DNA of 64,000 nucleotides from the NCBI RefSeq assembly GCF_024397795.1, contig NZ_CP072983.1:1488001-1552000 (forward strand), written 5' to 3'. The notes under the pieces were generated by a model. That model was not told the origin of the DNA, did not search any database, and saw only the letters and a list, made by a program, of their open reading frames with translations. This DNA is from Lactobacillus intestinalis (GTDB lineage Bacteria > Bacillota > Bacilli > Lactobacillales > Lactobacillaceae). The translations under genes and the position numbers were made by a program. Shown in pieces: positions 8,506-15,387 of this stretch (positions are counted from its first letter, which is position 1; every line of letters starts with the position of its first letter).

Positions 8506-9057
8506 TTAATTTTGCTTAAGCTTTGTTACTATCGTGTTTAAATCGCTTTCAGTTTCATTCCATTTATCATTTAACAAAATGTGCGCTGTTTGCTTCAAAT
8601 CTTCTGGCAATCGATTTAATTCACTCCCAGACAGACGTTTTTTGACCATTTCCTTACTATCCCCACGGTTAATTAAACGCTCACGCAACTCATCCATGGT
8701 GGAAGTTGTCACATAAAGAAAATAAACTTGCTCAGGATCAAGTTTGGACAAATATGACTTCACTCCTTGAATATCAACTATTAAAGAAACGATGTCATGC
8801 TTTTTCCACATGGCTTCCAAGGCCTCTTTACTTGAGCCATATTGGTAGTTGCCATATTTTATATGTTCAAAGAAGTGCAACTTATTGAAGCTTTCATTTG
8901 TTTCAAAAAAGTAGCTTTCTTTGTCGACTTCACCCTCTCGTTTAGGACGCGTAGTATGAGTAATCACCCGAGGGATGCCATATTCACGCTCTAAATAATT
9001 TGAAATCGTTGTCTTTCCTGCCCCACTTGGTCCGGCGATCAAAATAATTTTCTTCAT
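8506..9057 (-). CDS. Guanylate-kinase-like nucleoside monophosphate kinase
   Basis: Guanylate kinase family protein, 183 residues, with P-loop GPSGAGKTT (about residues 9-17), the GMP-binding region THTTRPKREGE followed by ESYFFET, and YGSS plus DIQGVKSYL in the places used for GMP contacts and the lid. Canonical Gmk has THTTRxPRxGE and longer C-terminal helices and is about 205 residues, so this is probably a paralogue; a housekeeping gmk is expected elsewhere. Its substrate may be GMP or may differ. It is divergent from the DUF2187-like gene at 9148 and monocistronic, with no clear terminator seen. Confidence 0.75.
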   Translation of the reverse strand: MKKIILIAGPSGAGKTTISNYLEREYGIPRVITHTTRPKREGEVDKESYFFETNESFNKLHFFEHIKYGNYQYGSSKEALEAMWKKHDIVSLIVDIQGVKSYLSKLDPEQVYFLYVTTSTMDELRERLINRGDSKEMVKKRLSGSELNRLPEDLKQTAHILLNDKWNETESDLNTIVTKLKQN

Positions 9058-9147
9058 TTTTGAGTATACTTCCCTTGAAAACTTATAATTAATGTAATAA
9101 CATTCTACTATTGTATAAAAGAAAAGTGGAAGGAGAAAAATTTCACT

Positions 9148-9450
9148 ATGAAAAAAGCAGATGTAAAAGTTGGCGCAATTGTTGGCGGCAAGTCAGAAGA
9201 AGAACTTAAGAAGCCATTTTTAGGTAAAGTAGAAAAAATCTACGAAAATTCCGCTCTTTTAGCTATTACTTCATATGACCCAGTTGACGAAACTGCCATC
9301 AGCGACTTAAATAATAAGATTGTTGTTAACTTCAAAAACTTAAAGAGTGCTCGCAGCTTGAAGAACTCTAAGACTGCCGCAACTAACGAAGTTAAGATCG
9401 AAAAGATGAAGAAAGTTGCTAAAAAAGACGACGATAAGAAAGAAAAGTAA
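9148..9450 (+). CDS. Small DUF2187-like protein with lysine-rich tail
   Basis: 100-residue cytoplasmic protein. The first 70 residues form a small beta-rich domain (FLGKVEKIYENSALLAITSYDP, then NNKIVVNFKNL), which resembles DUF2187/KOW-like proteins of Firmicutes as I recall them. The last 30 residues are mostly Lys, Asp and Glu, so the tail is disordered and charged, compatible with nucleic-acid or ribosome contact; that role is inference. AGGAG precedes the ATG. It is followed by a strong terminator, so it is monocistronic. Confidence 0.75.
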   Translation: MKKADVKVGAIVGGKSEEELKKPFLGKVEKIYENSALLAITSYDPVDETAISDLNNKIVVNFKNLKSARSLKNSKTAATNEVKIEKMKKVAKKDDDKKEK

Positions 9451-9460
9451 TTTTCGAATT

Positions 9461-9493
9461 AGACTAAGAATTTATATCTTAGTCTTTTTTTTT
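9461..9493 (+). terminator. Rho-independent terminator
   Basis: AGACTAAGA-ATTTATA-TCTTAGTCT followed by T8, after the DUF2187-like gene. Confidence 0.9.
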
Positions 9494-9548
9494 CGTCTTT
9501 TTTTTCCTAAAATAAGGCGAGTAGTTTTGAAAGAGGATAACTTTAACA

Positions 9549-11075
9549 ATGAAAGAAAAAACAAGAACTGCCTTATTTTGGTTCATACTTATTCAGCCAT
9601 TTTTAGACCTTTATTGGCTCTATAATGGTAAGCTAGCCACGATTTTGCCATTCACACTACCGACAATCATTAGAATTTTAGCAGTGGGAATCTTAATCGG
9701 GATGTTTTTCAGTAAAAAAGACTCCTGGCAAAAGCTTAATAAGCAGAAATGGTTGATTGCCTATCTAATTTTGCTAGTTGTGTATTCAATCTTTCACTTA
9801 TTACATGTGCGCCACTTTAATAGCGTCAATCCGAATGATTACAACTATTCCACCATCAGTGAAATTTTTTATTTAATTAGAATGTTTCTTCCACTCAGCG
9901 TAATTTACTTTACCCGTGAGTTGGAATTTACTCAAGAAGATTTTAAAAAAGTGATTATGGGATTGTCGGGATTATTTTCCTTTACAATCGTCATCAGTAA
10001 TTTATTTTTAATTTCGCTAAGATCTTATGGCGACGGTTTTATTTCAGCAAATGTTTTTGAGTGGTTTTTTAATCAAAATATTGGCTATTCTCATATTGCT
10101 TCTAAAGGATTTTTCAATTTTGCCAATATGGTTAGCGCGATTTTGTTTATGTTGCTTCCGCTAATGCTTTACTTTATGTTTAAGGAATTCAACTGGAAAA
10201 TCGTTACTTTAAACGCAGTTCAAGCCTTAGCCATGCTAGAAATTGGGACTAAAGTGGCGGCGATTGGTTTAATCGCGGGAATCATCATCACCCTTTTGAT
10301 TTACTTTATTCATCGCTTTTTGATAAAAAATGTACATAAAAATACACAGGCTGTTCTGGCAGCTTTAATCATTGAAATTGCATCCCTGGCAATTCTTCCT
10401 TTCAGCCCTGCAATTCAGCGTTACAACTATGAAATTTACTTAGCTCATCAATCTGACCATGAATTAAAAGATGAAACTAAAGAACTTGAAACTGGTCTAA
10501 AGAAGTATCCTCAAGGTAAAAAGCGTCAGGAATTCTTACGGACATTTATTAAAGAAAATTACCATTCATACGCACTAAACGAAAAATTCGTTACGAAGAG
10601 TTATTCATATCAATATGATCCCGAATTCTGGCTATCTATTATGAAACAACCCGGTGAAACGCGAATGCAGAATCGCTATCTTGAACGCGCTATGCTCGAT
10701 AAAGTGGTCGCTACTAACAACAATAAGCTTGATAAGTTCATGGGTATTTCTTACACGCGTGAAACTAATATCTTCAATTTAGAGCGTGATTTCACTTCAC
10801 AAATTTATTCCTTAGGATGGTTTGGCATGATTTTGTTTATTGGCCCTTATGTTGCTATCTTGGCCTATGGAATCTTGAAGTGGATCTTAAACAAAAACAA
10901 ACGCACTTATCTAATTACATCTATCTTAACTGCGATGGTTTTCATGTTAGCAGCTGCTTTTTCTTCAGGAAACGTAATGGACTTTTTAACGGCAAGTTTC
11001 ATCTTGGCATTTGTTAGTGGATTTTTGTTGAAAGAATTTGCTGGTGAGTCAAGAACACAAAGATTATTCAAATAA
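9549..11075 (+). CDS. Wzy/O-antigen-ligase-like polytopic membrane protein
   Basis: 508-residue integral membrane protein with about 11-12 hydrophobic segments and one large extracytoplasmic loop between about residues 295 and 405. That topology is shared by Wzy polymerases and WaaL-type ligases. It may join or polymerise a lipid-linked glycan (surface polysaccharide or glycosylated wall polymer). The family assignment rests on topology and general appearance (GTKVAAIGLIAGI, then the long soluble loop); no catalytic residue can be named confidently. No glycosyltransferases lie nearby, which is unusual for a Wzy protein and leaves its substrate open. Confidence 0.65.
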   Translation: MKEKTRTALFWFILIQPFLDLYWLYNGKLATILPFTLPTIIRILAVGILIGMFFSKKDSWQKLNKQKWLIAYLILLVVYSIFHLLHVRHFNSVNPNDYNYSTISEIFYLIRMFLPLSVIYFTRELEFTQEDFKKVIMGLSGLFSFTIVISNLFLISLRSYGDGFISANVFEWFFNQNIGYSHIASKGFFNFANMVSAILFMLLPLMLYFMFKEFNWKIVTLNAVQALAMLEIGTKVAAIGLIAGIIITLLIYFIHRFLIKNVHKNTQAVLAALIIEIASLAILPFSPAIQRYNYEIYLAHQSDHELKDETKELETGLKKYPQGKKRQEFLRTFIKENYHSYALNEKFVTKSYSYQYDPEFWLSIMKQPGETRMQNRYLERAMLDKVVATNNNKLDKFMGISYTRETNIFNLERDFTSQIYSLGWFGMILFIGPYVAILAYGILKWILNKNKRTYLITSILTAMVFMLAAAFSSGNVMDFLTASFILAFVSGFLLKEFAGESRTQRLFK

Positions 11076-11103
11076 AAAAGACGATCCGAAGATCGTCTTT
11101 TTT
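11074..11103. terminator. Bidirectional terminator
   Basis: AAAAAGACGATC-CGAA-GATCGTCTTTTTT between two convergent genes. Confidence 0.95.
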
Positions 11104-11109
11104 ATATTT

Positions 11110-11736
11110 TTAACTACGTTTTTGTTTAACAAAAGTTGAATCAGGAATTCGAATCAAGTAATACTGCGTCGCAATTCTTCCTGCATGCATTCCAATTCCA
11201 TTTTGCCAGTTCTTCTCGTAGCGTGCTGTGTAGATTGCCACATATGCTCTTTGATACTTTTCATCCATTTGTTTCAATTTCTTCAATTCGTATGGAATCT
11301 TTTCTGCATTAACGCTCATCGGATTATTGCCATAAGATACGGTCGCATAATCGCTGGAGACAGTAATTTTACTACCAGCGCGGTAATAAGTATAAGTTTG
11401 AGAACCGTTCTTTTTCTTAGAAGAATTGATGGTCACATAACTTGAATTCCCTGAGCCAGTGTTCATAATCAAAGGTTCATATTTCACACTGGAAGTAATG
11501 CGGCTTGTATCATCGAGGTTAGGGTTATCCAGCGCTGTCTGATTAAACAGCCATAGGGCAGCCACAATAAAAATTACAATTTCAACCACGTCTAAAATAA
11601 AGTTCGGCCAATTAAAGCGTTGGTGTTTCTTAATAATCATTTCGATTCGTCTACGGCGAATATTTTGAATGATAAACACTAAATAAAGGATAACAATGAC
11701 CCATAATAAAATCCCGAGCAAGTTCCAACTAATCAT
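11110..11736 (-). CDS. Conserved two-TM membrane protein of lactobacilli, function unknown
   Basis: 208 residues. Two hydrophobic segments (about 5-25 and 46-65) are separated by an Arg/Lys-rich cytoplasmic loop, followed by a Ser/Thr/Tyr-rich extracytoplasmic domain of about 140 residues. I believe it belongs to the lactobacillus-specific group named after LVIS_2131, but this is recall, not a search. No enzyme motif is visible. A GGGG-type ribosome site precedes the ATG. It is divergent from nrdI, with the nrdI promoter in the roughly 115-base gap, so shared regulation is possible. Confidence 0.65.
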   Translation of the reverse strand: MISWNLLGILLWVIVILYLVFIIQNIRRRRIEMIIKKHQRFNWPNFILDVVEIVIFIVAALWLFNQTALDNPNLDDTSRITSSVKYEPLIMNTGSGNSSYVTINSSKKKNGSQTYTYYRAGSKITVSSDYATVSYGNNPMSVNAEKIPYELKKLKQMDEKYQRAYVAIYTARYEKNWQNGIGMHAGRIATQYYLIRIPDSTFVKQKRS

Positions 11737-11791
11737 ATTGACTGCCCCTTTCTATGGTTTTAATTATATGGTTTTTTTCCTAACTAAACAA

Positions 11792-11820
11792 TTGAAACAT
11801 GACCAATGAAGTGGGAGAAT
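11792..11820 (+). promoter_or_regulatory. Promoter of nrdI-nrdF
   Basis: TTGAAA (11792-11797), a 17-base spacer, then GAGAAT (11815-11820), 32 bases before the nrdI ATG. I see no palindromic NrdR-type box pair. Confidence 0.5.
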
Positions 11821-11852
11821 GAACTTGTGATAGTTTATATTTAGGAAAAATT

Positions 11853-12296
11853 ATGGTAGCAATAGCATTTTATTCAATTACTGGGCAAACTAAGAAATTT
11901 GTTGTCAAGACAGGCTTAGAGGCCCATGAAATCGACGATGCGTGGCCACAATATGATATGGGAGAAGACTACATTCTTATTACACCTTCCTATCAGGATT
12001 TTATGATGGATTCGCTTGTTGATTTTTTAAATTATAAAGATAATAAAAAACACCTAGTTGGAATTATTGGTTGTGGCAACCGAAACTTTAACGATTTATT
12101 TGCGCAAACCGCCAAAAAACTATCGGTTACTCTTAAAGTTCCAATACTTTATTTAATGGAATTTAGTGGGACAGATAAGGACGTTAAAAATGTTCGCAAA
12201 ATTGTTAGAGGACTTGCAAAGGGTCAAAGTACGAAAGAGGTACAAAAGCCCAAAGAAATGCGTGGAAATATTAGCTTTTTAAGTGACTACAGGTAA
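11853..12296 (+). CDS. nrdI: NrdI flavodoxin, R2 activase
   Basis: FMN protein that supplies superoxide to the class Ib ribonucleotide reductase small subunit NrdF so that its radical forms. In metal-free class Ie enzymes it is needed to modify the radical tyrosine. The 147-residue protein has the flavodoxin phosphate loop YSITGQTKKF (about 7-16) and the NrdI signature GCGNRNFNDLFAQTA, followed by VPILYLMEFSGT. All look normal. The C-terminal 25 residues (after GLAKGQ) extend beyond most NrdI proteins. It is followed 2 bases later by nrdF, so the two are co-transcribed. No nrdE or nrdH accompanies them. Confidence 0.9.
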   Translation: MVAIAFYSITGQTKKFVVKTGLEAHEIDDAWPQYDMGEDYILITPSYQDFMMDSLVDFLNYKDNKKHLVGIIGCGNRNFNDLFAQTAKKLSVTLKVPILYLMEFSGTDKDVKNVRKIVRGLAKGQSTKEVQKPKEMRGNISFLSDYR

Positions 12297-12298
12297 TA

Positions 12299-13231
12299 AT
12301 GACTAAGAAATATAGAACAATCAATTGGAATAAAATTGAAAATCGAGTAGATTTCTCAGCTTGGTCTCGTTTAAATGATTTTATTTGGGAGCCAGCTCGA
12401 GTTCCAGTCCATAAAGATAAAGATGAATTTAATAATTTAGAGCCCGTTATTCAAGATACCTTCTTGAAATCTTTTAGCTCTTTGGCATTCCTCTCCAGTT
12501 TACAAGTTAAAATTGGAGACGATATTGTCAAAAAAGATTCCGCAACTCAACTTGAATACTCTGTTTTTAATGCTTTGGCTTACTTGGAGTCAATTGCTAA
12601 TCGAGGCTATAACTATGTAATCCAAACTTTAGCAGATCCAACACAAATTGACAGCATGATTGAGTGGGCTGAAAATTCTGACATTTTGCAGGATATTGCC
12701 ACTTTAATTGGGGATGTCTATTTAAAGGGGAGTGTTTTGCAAAAGAAGATTGCCTTATCATTCGTAGAAATGGCAGTCTATCATGCAGATTATTACACCC
12801 CTCTTTACATTTTTGGAGAAGGTAAATTAGTACGCTCGGCCGAAATTATCAAATTAGCTATTCGGAGTACTTCCTTTAATGCAATGTACCCTGGCGTTAA
12901 ATTTAGAGCTTCATTTGATAATTTATCTAAAGAAAAGCAAGATGATTTGAAGGTTTGGATTGATACTTTTATAGCTAATTTAGCTGGCTTAGTCGAAAAG
13001 CACATCGACGAGCTCTACACGAATTGCGGATGGAATAATGAGGTAAAGCATTATTTCCGCTATACCATTAACAAAAATTACATGAACTTAGGATTTCCTA
13101 CTCCTTACCCTGATGATGCCAATACCATCAACCCTACCATTCAACAAGGAGTAATTAAGAGTGCTGATTTTGAAGATTTCTTCTATTATCAAAACAGCAA
13201 TCGTCTTACTGAGTTTCATGAAGAACACTAG
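12299..13231 (+). CDS. nrdF: Divergent NrdF-like R2 protein lacking four of six metal ligands
   Basis: Homologue of the class Ib ribonucleotide reductase small subunit, 310 residues. By hand alignment to enterobacterial NrdF, the regions around the active site match without gaps and with an offset of one residue. The ligands Asp67, Glu98, His101, Glu158, Glu192 and His195 correspond to Ser66, Glu97, Ala100, Glu157, Thr191 and Asn194 here, so four are lost. The radical Tyr105 is kept as Tyr104 and Trp31 as Trp30. At the C-terminus the radical-relay Tyr is missing and the acidic-aromatic NrdE-binding tail is replaced by LTEFHEEH. The fold motifs INWNKI, PLYIFGEGKL and NKNYMNLGF remain. A normal di-iron or di-manganese site seems impossible. 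It may be a new metal-free R2 subclass or a repurposed subunit. Confidence 0.85.
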   Translation: MTKKYRTINWNKIENRVDFSAWSRLNDFIWEPARVPVHKDKDEFNNLEPVIQDTFLKSFSSLAFLSSLQVKIGDDIVKKDSATQLEYSVFNALAYLESIANRGYNYVIQTLADPTQIDSMIEWAENSDILQDIATLIGDVYLKGSVLQKKIALSFVEMAVYHADYYTPLYIFGEGKLVRSAEIIKLAIRSTSFNAMYPGVKFRASFDNLSKEKQDDLKVWIDTFIANLAGLVEKHIDELYTNCGWNNEVKHYFRYTINKNYMNLGFPTPYPDDANTINPTIQQGVIKSADFEDFFYYQNSNRLTEFHEEH

Positions 13232-13233
13232 AA

Positions 13234-13257
13234 AGAAGCCCGATGGGCTTCTTTTTT
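13234..13257 (+). terminator. Terminator of nrdI-nrdF
   Basis: GAAGCCC-GAT-GGGCTTC followed by T6. Confidence 0.92.
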
Positions 13258-13335
13258 GTTTAGAGTTAAGGTCAAATTTTAGATATTTTTGGCAAAAGTA
13301 TAGTGATTAATCTAAATACAAAAAATATTATATAG

Positions 13336-13364
13336 AAAAAAGCAATTCTTAGAATTGCTTTTTA
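13336..13364. terminator. Bidirectional terminator
   Basis: AAAAGCAATTCT/TAGAATTGCTTTT is a long uninterrupted palindrome with T runs on both strands, just after the stop of the minus-strand gene at 13367. Confidence 0.85.
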
Positions 13365-13366
13365 CT

Positions 13367-13876
13367 TTATTCACTTTTCTTAGTTGTTGTTTTTTTGGCT
13401 GTTGTTTTTTCAGGTTTCTTATATTCACGAATCACTTGCAACTTATCCATAATTGCATCAACCATCATATTACTGATCGCTTCTGGATCAGCTTCAATTT
13501 GCTTTTCAGTCGCAATTTGATCAATTCGAAAATGAGAAACATTTATATATTCTGAACGAGTTTCAAAATAAACATTCAAGGCATAATCCACACCTTCGTC
13601 AAAAAAGTTGGAGATCTTTTTATAGTTACTATAAGGCAAGTTGATGATATTCGTTTCCAGGGCAAAAGTCACCGGTCTTCGCCCAGTTAAAGCAAGCTGA
13701 GTTTGAACTAAGGAATCATGCTTAAAGGCAGCCACTACCTCTTTAACCATCTTGTCAGTATAAACCTTCAGCTTCTTCTTTGACTTGCTTACATCTGCAT
13801 ATTTTATAGTTTCAAGATCTTGAATGTATTCTTGATTTTCAATCTTATCAATTAAGTCTTTTAAATTAATTTCCAA
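13367..13876 (-). CDS. Conserved hypothetical cytoplasmic protein
   Basis: 169 residues, no signal peptide or membrane segment. I do not recognise it. The N-terminal 60 residues are helical and charged (IDKIENQEYIQDLETIKYAD), the middle mixes beta-like segments (RPVTFALETNIINLP), and the last 17 residues are a Lys/Thr tail. The regular composition, good codon use and a dedicated terminator argue that it is a real gene. It faces the C39-like protease gene divergently across about 120 bases of AT-rich DNA. Confidence 0.6.
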   Translation of the reverse strand: MEINLKDLIDKIENQEYIQDLETIKYADVSKSKKKLKVYTDKMVKEVVAAFKHDSLVQTQLALTGRRPVTFALETNIINLPYSNYKKISNFFDEGVDYALNVYFETRSEYINVSHFRIDQIATEKQIEADPEAISNMMVDAIMDKLQVIREYKKPEKTTAKKTTTKKSE

Positions 13877-13994
13877 AACGTATTGTCCTTTGATCTAAAT
13901 TTGAGTTTTTCTAAGTATTACCTTACTCAACTTTTAAACTAAATACAACTATAAGTCGTTTCAAAAATACATAAAATGTGCTTAAATACTAGCC

Positions 13995-14723
13995 ATGGAA
14001 ACAAAAACAAGATCTCAAATGAGAAAATCACACAATAAAAATTGGGTTAATATTCTCTGTATCATTCTGGCAATCGGATTACTAGGTGTTTTTCTCAATT
14101 TTAACAAAATCAAGAAAAATTGGGACTGGCTCACGATGAAGCCAAGGCAAGAATTGAATGTCCCCTTGGAAAAACAACTTCCTGACTTACCTAATGGGTG
14201 TGAAGTGACATCCCTCTCAATGCTTTTAAACTATTATCACATCAACGTTTCAAAGGATAAACTTGCGCAAAATATCAAGCATGTTTCATCCTTCACAGAT
14301 GATGGACAGTATCGGGGTAATCCTCATGAAGGCTTCGTTGGCTATATGAGCATCGCAAATGCCGGCTGGTGCGTTTATAACGAACCGCTCTATAATGTTG
14401 CGCGTAAATACACTGACCGCATCCAAAACGCAACCGGCTCCAGTTTTACCCATCTTCTCAGCCTTGTTTCAAGCGGACATCCCGTGATGATTATTACTAC
14501 CTTACATTTTAATAAGGTCAATGACATGCAAACTTGGAAAACGAAGCAAGGAAATGTCCATGTAACGCCCTCTTCGCATGCATGTGTAATTACAGGTTAC
14601 GATAAAAAGAAGCGCCTAGTTTACGTAAATGACCCGTATGGGGTTAAAAATAAAGCTGTCTCATGGAATAATATCGAAGCCAGTTATAACCAGCAAGGAC
14701 GTCAAGCCTTGTACATCAACTAA
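13995..14723 (+). CDS. Membrane-anchored C39-like cysteine protease
   Basis: 242 residues with a single N-terminal membrane segment (about 18-36), then an extracytoplasmic peptidase C39-like domain. Catalytic Cys lies in LPNGCEVTSLSMLLNYY (about residue 68), His in SSHACVITGYD and the Asp/Asn in YVNDPYG, in the order expected for papain-fold C39_2 proteins. It is not linked to an ABC transporter and lacks the bacteriocin-processing context, so the substrate is probably a wall or surface protein; that is inference. No ATG-proximal strong ribosome site is apparent. It ends at a terminator shared with the opposite strand. Confidence 0.8.
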   Translation: METKTRSQMRKSHNKNWVNILCIILAIGLLGVFLNFNKIKKNWDWLTMKPRQELNVPLEKQLPDLPNGCEVTSLSMLLNYYHINVSKDKLAQNIKHVSSFTDDGQYRGNPHEGFVGYMSIANAGWCVYNEPLYNVARKYTDRIQNATGSSFTHLLSLVSSGHPVMIITTLHFNKVNDMQTWKTKQGNVHVTPSSHACVITGYDKKKRLVYVNDPYGVKNKAVSWNNIEASYNQQGRQALYIN

Positions 14724-14909
14724 AAAAAGACCAAGAACCATAAAGTTCCTGGTCTTTTAACTCAAGGCACATTTTCAAAAGAAAATATGTGGACACTTCC
14801 TGTTCACATCAGGGTTGTCCAACATCAGCACTTCCCGTGCCTGCTATTTAAAGTAGATGTCCTCTATCTCAAAAATATCCGCATCTCGCGTTGTTTTTCT
14901 CGACTCGTC
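14722..14909 (-). ncRNA. Putative structured small RNA of about 187 nt, family unknown
   Basis: A gene-free interval that carries its own signals on the minus strand: promoter TTTACA-18-TATAAT, overlapping the 3' end of the exporter gene, and a strong terminator at 14725-14758. Between them several stems fold: CGC/GCG around GAGAT, GACATC/GATGTT enclosing a GCAC-GGGAA-GTGC hairpin, GGACA...CCTG/CAGG...TGTCC, and CACATATTTTC/GAAAATGTG. The short sequence GGAAGTG occurs in two of the hairpins. Length and layout would fit a 6S-like or other regulatory RNA, but I cannot match it to a family. Confidence 0.55.
14725..14758. terminator. Strong bidirectional terminator
   Basis: AAAAGACCAAGAAC/GTTCCTGGTCTTTT stem with one mismatch. 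T7 on the minus strand ends the putative small RNA; the plus-strand side ends the C39-like gene. Confidence 0.88.
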
Positions 14910-14915
14910 ATTAGT

Positions 14916-14945
14916 ATTATAGCTTAATTTTGCGCTTCTTGTAAA
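14916..14945 (-). promoter_or_regulatory. Promoter of the putative small RNA
   Basis: Minus strand TTTACA (14940-14945), 18-base spacer, perfect TATAAT (14916-14921). It overlaps the last codons of the threonine/serine exporter gene. Confidence 0.65.
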
Positions 14946-15387
14946 ACTTTTTAACTCGGTAGAACATTTCAGTAAACATGGTGGCAAGTAAAATTCCTAA
15001 AGCAATCGAACACGTTACAATTCCAACCCGTAAAAACGAAGCTTCTGCGTCAAATACATTGCCATTTACGAGAGCTCGCACCGCTTGATAAGCTGGCACT
15101 CCGGGTACAAGCGGAACGAGAGCGGGAATATTAAAAACAGTCACTGGACATTTTTTAATTCGGGCAAAAAATAAACCCAAGATTCCAATCACAAATGCGC
15201 CCATTAAGTTAGACAGCATTCTTCCCATTTGAGCTTTAGTAATAAACCAGCACACCATCCAGCCCACCGTTCCACTAACTCCCGCAAGATTCAAGGCACG
15301 GTGTGGCACATTGATCGTCAGCGCAAATCCCACTGAAGCAATATAGGAAAAGACAATATTGATAATAATCTGCATGTATATTGGCAT
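14917..15387 (-). CDS. Threonine/serine exporter, small membrane subunit (ThrE_2 domain)
   Basis: 156-residue membrane protein with four to five hydrophobic segments; it corresponds to the second half (DUF3815/ThrE_2) of ThrE, which exports threonine and serine. Motifs include PHRALNLAGVSGTVGW and IPALVPLVPGVPAYQAVRAL, typical of the family. It starts 2 bases after the stop of the partner gene at 15390, so the two halves are translated together and probably form one transporter. The 3' end overlaps the promoter of the putative small RNA. Confidence 0.85.
   Translation of the reverse strand: MPIYMQIIINIVFSYIASVGFALTINVPHRALNLAGVSGTVGWMVCWFITKAQMGRMLSNLMGAFVIGILGLFFARIKKCPVTVFNIPALVPLVPGVPAYQAVRALVNGNVFDAEASFLRVGIVTCSIALGILLATMFTEMFYRVKKFYKKRKIKL

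Follow-up and report, generated by a model that had tools for sequence, protein, structure and literature searches.

The window, i.e. the whole stretch of 64,000 nucleotides of Lactobacillus intestinalis DNA that has been analysed, contains a pair of genes on the forward strand: nrdI (11853..12296), which encodes a NrdI-like flavodoxin of 147 residues, is followed after a gap of 2 nt by a gene (12299..13231) that encodes an R2-like, NrdF-derived protein of 310 residues, from which the set of dimetal ligands has been lost. R2 supplies the radical to an essential enzyme, ribonucleotide reductase (RNR), and NrdI is the activator of R2. Both reading frames are open, and the initial annotation, which had placed the two genes in one short operon and had described NrdI as normal in appearance, is borne out: the coordinates are right, and the NrdI-like protein matches both PF07972 (113.7 bits) and TIGR00333, passing the equivalog cut-off of the latter (85.9 vs 74.65 bits). 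The R2-like protein passes the gathering score of PF00268, the profile of the RNR small subunit (142.4 vs 33.6 bits), and misses the cut-off of TIGR04171, the profile of class Ib NrdF (230 vs 355 bits).

After the R2-like gene, an inverted repeat followed by six T (13235..13257, forward strand), read by eye, is a possible terminator; the terminator scan of positions 11700-13400 did not return this repeat and reported positions 13337-13363 instead. The sites found by the scans of this region, one terminator-like site vs 1.0 in shuffled sequences and eight promoter-like sites vs 6.8, lend no support to either type of signal. The scan of positions 9000-15000 against Rfam gave a single match, located outside the pair: a COG3610-DE RNA motif (RF03066, 85.2 bits) at 14788-14909, downstream and on the opposite strand. 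On the other side of the pair, a membrane protein similar to O-antigen ligases (PF13425) is encoded at 9549-11075 of the forward strand.

The alignment (phmmer) of the R2-like protein with the NrdF structure 4n83, from Streptococcus sanguinis (PMC9462851), covers residues 4-298 of both proteins with zero gaps, so that the six ligand columns can be read directly: Asp66, Glu97, His100, Glu157, Glu191 and His194 are occupied by Ser, Glu, Ala, Glu, Thr and Asn, while the tyrosine at position 104 is kept. The class Ib ligand set (D/E/H/E/E/H) is thus absent from the window protein, in agreement with the six-residue reading of the initial annotation. Among 45 homologues, 44 have Ser66 and no His100 and, where the sequence reaches, Thr or Ser at position 191 and no His194; the only canonical protein among them is P0045. 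Since 44 of the 45 depart from the canonical set in the same way, the loss of the ligands is not an artefact; an alignment error or a frameshift is ruled out by the gapless alignment and by the dozens of relatives with the same changes.

We have compared the residues of 61 proteins of this family (the window protein included), which we refer to as orphan R2 proteins, with 36 canonical Lactobacillaceae R2 proteins and two class Ie R2 proteins, after the exclusion of 22 near-duplicates, fragments and broken or fused copies; some of the 61 may represent one species taken from two databases. The residue at position 66 (codon 12494..12496, forward strand, as for all codons below) is Ser in 61/61 orphans and Asp in all canonical (36/36) and class Ie (2/2) proteins, and neither ligand histidine is kept in any of the 61. 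Position 100 is occupied by Ala in 44, Asn in 16 and Ser in one orphan; position 194 by Asn in 44, Ser in 14 and Gly, Cys and Ala in one each; position 191 (codon 12869..12871), which is Glu in the canonical proteins (36/36) and Lys in the VPK type of class Ie (2/2), by Thr in 60, with Ser in the other. Glu97 (codon 12587..12589) is the sole invariant residue among the six ligand positions (61/61), whereas position 157 is Glu in 46, Ser in 11, Asn in three and Gln in one. The dismantled site that had been described for the window protein is therefore a family trait as regards Ser66 and both histidines, but not as regards Glu157, which is not constant. Tyr104 (codon 12608..12610), i.e. the radical or DOPA tyrosine, had been noted as kept, and it is present in 60 of the 61 orphans, the other having Phe.

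The changes extend beyond the ligands: at 22 positions, the orphans and the canonical proteins each have a fixed residue (93% or more) of their own, including D66S, A101N, F161Y, Y162H, E191T, K24R, L31E, D32P and W44F, as well as L172F, N179R, I187A, Q203R, T289A, Q297Y and G299N, while 30 positions are invariant in both groups alike, among them E97, Y104, Q69, R189, N258 and K259. Asp190 is gone in 61/61 orphans. Position 30, which we take to be the Trp of the radical path in R2, is Trp in 48 and Tyr in 13. The class Ib tail (…GNGYLLG…DxDYxxG), by which canonical R2 docks on R1, is absent from the orphans, and a C-terminus of the SAxFEDFFFYxNxxxLTKF type is found at its place in the alignments (13151..13228 in the window, forward strand).

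In the R2b protein of B. cereus, the channel that leads from NrdI to the metal site is formed by Ser162, Tyr166, Lys263, Asn267 and the main chain of Glu195 and Ser196 (PMC9462851), positions that correspond by alignment to 158, 162, 259, 263, 191 and 192 of the orphans. Lys259 (60/61), Asn263 (58/61) and Ser or Thr192 (59/61) are largely kept; position 158 is Met in 32, and the channel tyrosine at position 162 (Tyr in 36/36 canonical proteins) is replaced by His in 61/61 (codon 12782..12784). Gln69, taken as the counterpart of the channel-blocking Q91 of class Ie R2 (PMC7615503), is kept in 60/61 orphans, while the column of position 66, to which we have mapped D88 of the class Ie R2 of M. 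florum, the residue that bonds DOPA (PMC7615503), is Ser in 61/61.

The partner protein is also altered at its C-terminus, where an extension of approximately 25-35 residues, ending in GNISFLSDYR in the window (12219..12293, forward strand, start approximate), is present with an NISFLSDYR-like end in 25 of 26 aligned orphan NrdI proteins, the exception (L045, genome G392) having a different end; in the same alignment, the extension is absent from 30 NrdI proteins of other genera and from two class Ie NrdI proteins. The motif can be read, in any frame, at all 29 loci that carry the R2-like gene (27 with a stricter pattern), and occurs in 91 of the 96 C-terminally complete proteins among 120 of 137 NrdI matches listed; the other five comprise two with an end of the G392 type, two near variants and one unlike. 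The codons of the tail show synonymous variation, so the constraint acts on the protein, and no source of the tail was detected in NrdE or R2, the best local scores being within the range of shuffled sequences. In other genera of the Lactobacillaceae, many NrdI proteins have a longer Gly-rich loop (e.g. L137-L148), often beside a shorter NrdI. The new fixed residues, the altered end of R2 and the new end of NrdI suggest that the two proteins diverged together.

Among 75 Lactobacillus genomes, assigned to the genus by named relatives, 29 carry the R2-like gene (27/60 among the more complete, clean ones), and an NrdI match (E 1e-30 or better) is located directly upstream in 27 of the 29 carriers, with broken copies in the other two. 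In a search of 397 Lactobacillaceae genomes, the 17 orphan R2 genes among the matches listed are all in Lactobacillus, with E 8.9e-76 or better, while the best match listed from outside the genus is 37% identical (E 9.7e-66); as far as these genomes go, the family is restricted to Lactobacillus. Its members include a 97% identical protein from an uncultured Lactobacillus MAG (L005) and a 52% identical protein of Lactobacillus acidophilus (P0031) that is named ribonucleotide-diphosphate reductase subunit beta, and the names of the NrdI relatives begin with L. crispat, L. hamster and others (120 of 137 matches listed); one member (P0033) comes from a MAG named Limosilactobacillus, a placement given by the MAG label alone. 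In one genome (G067; L063 / L131), a single open frame of 474 aa spans both nrdI and the R2-like gene; it differs from the near relative G440 by one A in a run of A, so that it may be a natural fusion or a sequencing error, and it has been set aside.

In all 29 carriers, the pair is located just beyond the same divergent gene of 208 residues, and the same convergent gene of 169 residues follows within three ORFs in 28, the contig ending in the other (L119). A palindrome upstream, near the divergent gene, was noted by eye in some members of the family, and the PF13425 gene is near the site in 28 of the 29 carrier loci and was not recognised in 15 loci of other genera. These 15 are canonical operon loci, hand-picked from ten other genera, and in nine of them the same flank, i.e. 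a guanylate-kinase-like gene, a small gene and the 208-residue gene, is located beside nrdI-nrdE-nrdF, on the nrdI side. One small ORF lies between flank and operon in seven (L171, L172, L173, L176, L177, L179 and L181) and more genes in two (L174, L175); the remaining six operons are located elsewhere (L167-L170, L178, L180). In the four cases that were scanned (L171, L172, L173 and L176), this ORF encodes NrdH (TIGR02194 above cut-off), and in L179 it is, by inspection, a CxxC protein of the NrdH type. Since the site may contain a complete nrdHIEF operon in other genera, nrdH and nrdE have apparently been lost from it in place.

Of the 46 non-carriers, 20 loci were examined, and in 18 of them the two flanking genes are adjacent (ORF limit 60 residues), with one small ORF between them in L186 and three in L196; only a 64-residue remnant of nrdI is left at the site in genome G275. 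In a tree built from four flanking genes of 50 Lactobacillus genomes, the carriers are spread over the whole tree, and their distribution takes at least five changes. In the tree of 99 R2 sequences (LG+G4), all orphans group in a single clade (UFBoot 100) with a stem of 1.25 substitutions per site, the next grouping of this clade with the canonical proteins having a support of 41. The simplest history would be that nrdH and nrdE disappeared in place before Lactobacillus radiated and that the remainder was then lost several times. The synteny of the pair argues for vertical descent and against an origin from a plasmid or phage, a candidate that was rejected: the best eight rows of each search are R2 proteins of at most 36% identity, and no match reaches 60%.

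Both remaining genes are under purifying selection: dN/dS is 0 to 0.13 for R2 in the 12 of 14 genome pairs that gave an estimate (the other two being saturated) and 0 to 0.14 for NrdI in the 12 pairs with both copies usable, within the range of the neighbouring genes and far from 1, although the ratios are rough because many dS values exceed 1. The pair is also dispensable, being missing from 46/75 genomes (33/60 of the more complete ones) and broken in several: NrdI is broken beside an open R2 in G143, G248 and G386, and R2 in G300. Selection on the two leftover genes points to a new job for the pair.

The initial annotation had reported neither nrdE nor nrdH; the absence of nrdE holds for the whole window genome, where no R1 of NrdE grade was found and the only PF02867 match is a class II enzyme, NrdJ (RTPR, TIGR02505 867 bits), and that of nrdH holds at the locus. 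A class III NrdD is also present in this genome. An R1 of NrdE grade occurs in two of the 75 genomes (G392, G408), so that 27 of the 29 carriers are without nrdE; both of these genomes have a class Ie operon (L134, L135) on a contig separate from the orphan pair, in the order nrdF(VPK)-nrdI-nrdE reported for VPK operons (PMC11846895). Two carriers (G233 and G288, both 99% complete) have no match to PF02867, NrdJ or NrdD, although these profiles could miss an R1 that is highly divergent. Considering that nrdE is absent from 27 of the 29 carriers and that no RNR is matched in two, the pair is very unlikely to serve these carriers as an ordinary RNR subunit. By the same profiles, no RNR was detected in 11 non-carriers (G346, G400, G418, G422-G428, G442), which, like G233 and G288, are each 90% or more complete; these 13 Lactobacillus genomes would thus depend on salvaged deoxynucleosides. 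The class III NrdD is found in 25/29 carriers vs 15/46 non-carriers (Fisher p 5e-6), a link that may reflect shared ancestry, since the tree of the flanking genes offers only five independent pairs (median p 0.5), and NrdJ shows no link (13/29 carriers vs 18/46 non-carriers).

We interpret the pair as R2 and NrdI by descent that are located outside RNR by function, which is the best reading of these findings. That the R2-like protein is not an RNR subunit, and that it has no dimetal site, we consider very likely, and it is also highly probable that the pair works as a NrdI-R2 complex. Our main reading, to which we give a probability close to 0.7, is that of a metal-free flavin/oxygen module of R2 and NrdI that has been freed from RNR, its chemistry being proposed from the sequence. 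In an ancestor of the genus Lactobacillus, nrdH and nrdE would have been deleted from a class Ib nrdHIEF operon without any change of site, and the leftover NrdI and R2 would have evolved jointly into a redox module of two proteins with no remaining part in ribonucleotide reduction. NrdI, with FMN, would still dock on R2, and its reduced flavin would convert O2 to superoxide or peroxide, which would pass through the old channel (Q69, K259, N263 and S/T192, together with the new His162) and reach the former metal pocket, probably lined at present by Ser66, Glu97, Asn101, Tyr104, His162 and Thr191. There, the oxidant could be used without a dimetal centre, on Tyr104 or on a small organic ligand, or could be disposed of or sensed, while the new tail of NrdI and the new C-terminus of R2 may keep the two proteins bound to each other or recruit a third one. 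The kept parts are largely those that feed oxidant from NrdI to R2, and the lost parts are those that hold metals, carry the radical out or bind R1, which favours a flavin-fed module or an O2 sensor; the kept channel residues may, however, serve folding only. Oxidant chemistry in the former pocket is proposed tentatively, and a sensing or scaffold role somewhat more tentatively still.

Among the other explanations, a regulator or scaffold, in which the NrdI-R2 pair senses O2 or the redox state of the flavin and uses the new tails to bind a third protein, the pocket being without catalytic activity, would account for the conserved new ends of both proteins, for the lost ligand set and for the presence of the pair in two genomes without any RNR match; we consider it unlikely, because the 30 shared invariants include Tyr104, Glu97 and channel residues, for which a pure scaffold has no evident need. 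The invariant His162 at the channel position and the invariant Glu97 could alternatively belong to a relocated mononuclear metal site, fed by NrdI and completed by Glu157 in part of the family; however, 15/61 orphans have Ser, Asn or Gln in place of Glu157, leaving only two invariant candidate ligands, and such a metalloprotein is distinctly improbable.

The initial annotation had proposed either a new way of storing a radical or an R2 turned to another use, and it is the second idea that is better supported. The extent of the family within the genus and its location at a site of nrdHIEF in other genera go beyond what that annotation had noticed. A third type of metal-free radical, related to class Ie and serving an R1 encoded elsewhere or a class II or III enzyme, would be in line with the retention of Tyr104 and NrdI and with the NrdI-dependent DOPA of class Ie (PMC11846895), but we hardly credit it: nrdE is absent from 27/29 carriers and RNR is undetected in two, Ser replaces the DOPA-bonding Asp of class Ie, Asp190 and the class Ib tail are lost, and both carriers with nrdE have their own VPK R2 in the nrdF-nrdI-nrdE operon. 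A decaying, functionless remnant of the lost class Ib operon, suggested by the broken copies, by the losses in several lineages and by the earlier disappearance of nrdE and nrdH from the site, is also very improbable, given that dN/dS is within the range of the neighbouring genes, that the same replacements are fixed across the genus and that the NrdI tail is conserved. Returning to the module freed from RNR, we are evenly divided on its most specific form, i.e. that this would be the first R2-NrdI pair released from RNR, a metal-free, flavin-fed redox enzyme or sensor with a newly fixed Ser/Glu/Asn/Tyr/His/Thr pocket, which selection has maintained in much of the genus Lactobacillus, including species without RNR.

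A conserved pair without metal ligands, R1 or the class Ib tail suggests that the NrdI–R2 complex can live independently, and it occurs in commensal species (L. acidophilus, L. crispatus), where its label in the databases, "ribonucleotide-diphosphate reductase subunit beta", is a source of error for inventories of RNR. No published description of an orphan NrdI–R2 family was found in the open-access literature; R2 sequence space has been sorted by the motifs of classes Ia/b, Ic, Id and Ie, and the orphan pattern is not mentioned in the available part of that work (PMC8463856).

One of the closest known systems is the class Ib R2 (NrdF) with NrdI, with which the orphans share the gapless alignment, the NrdI partner, Tyr104, the residues Q69, K259 and N263 and, in 9/15 hand-picked loci of other genera, the chromosomal site. 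They differ from it by the change of four of the six ligands in the window protein and of five in part of the family, by the loss of Asp190 and of the class Ib tail, and by the absence of nrdE from 27/29 carriers and of nrdH from the site; membership in class Ib was thus rejected on the ligands, the NrdE partner and the profile cut-off. R2lox is likewise an R2-fold protein outside RNR, but it is described as having a Mn/Fe centre and a Tyr-Val cross-link (PMC6399176). Class Ie R2 proteins (VPK, QSK) resemble the orphans in that metal ligands are replaced while the tyrosine and NrdI are kept; however, class Ie replaces three glutamates (PMC11846895), and the VPK examples L065 and L067, whose residues fall in the same alignment columns, keep Asp66 and both histidines, which the orphans lose, while keeping Glu97. 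Membership in class Ie was also rejected on the residue pattern (E/E/T at positions 97, 157 and 191, with S66, A100 and N194), as the initial annotation had rightly found the pattern to be neither VPK nor QSK. Class Ie, moreover, works with NrdE, which 27/29 orphan carriers do not have. In class Ie, DOPA forms in the metal-free R2 when NrdI is co-expressed, by a mechanism that is described as unknown (PMC11846895); by analogy, DOPA might form in the orphan R2 as well, and the orphan pair is a natural test of what NrdI is capable of without a metal site, a question that class Ie has left open.
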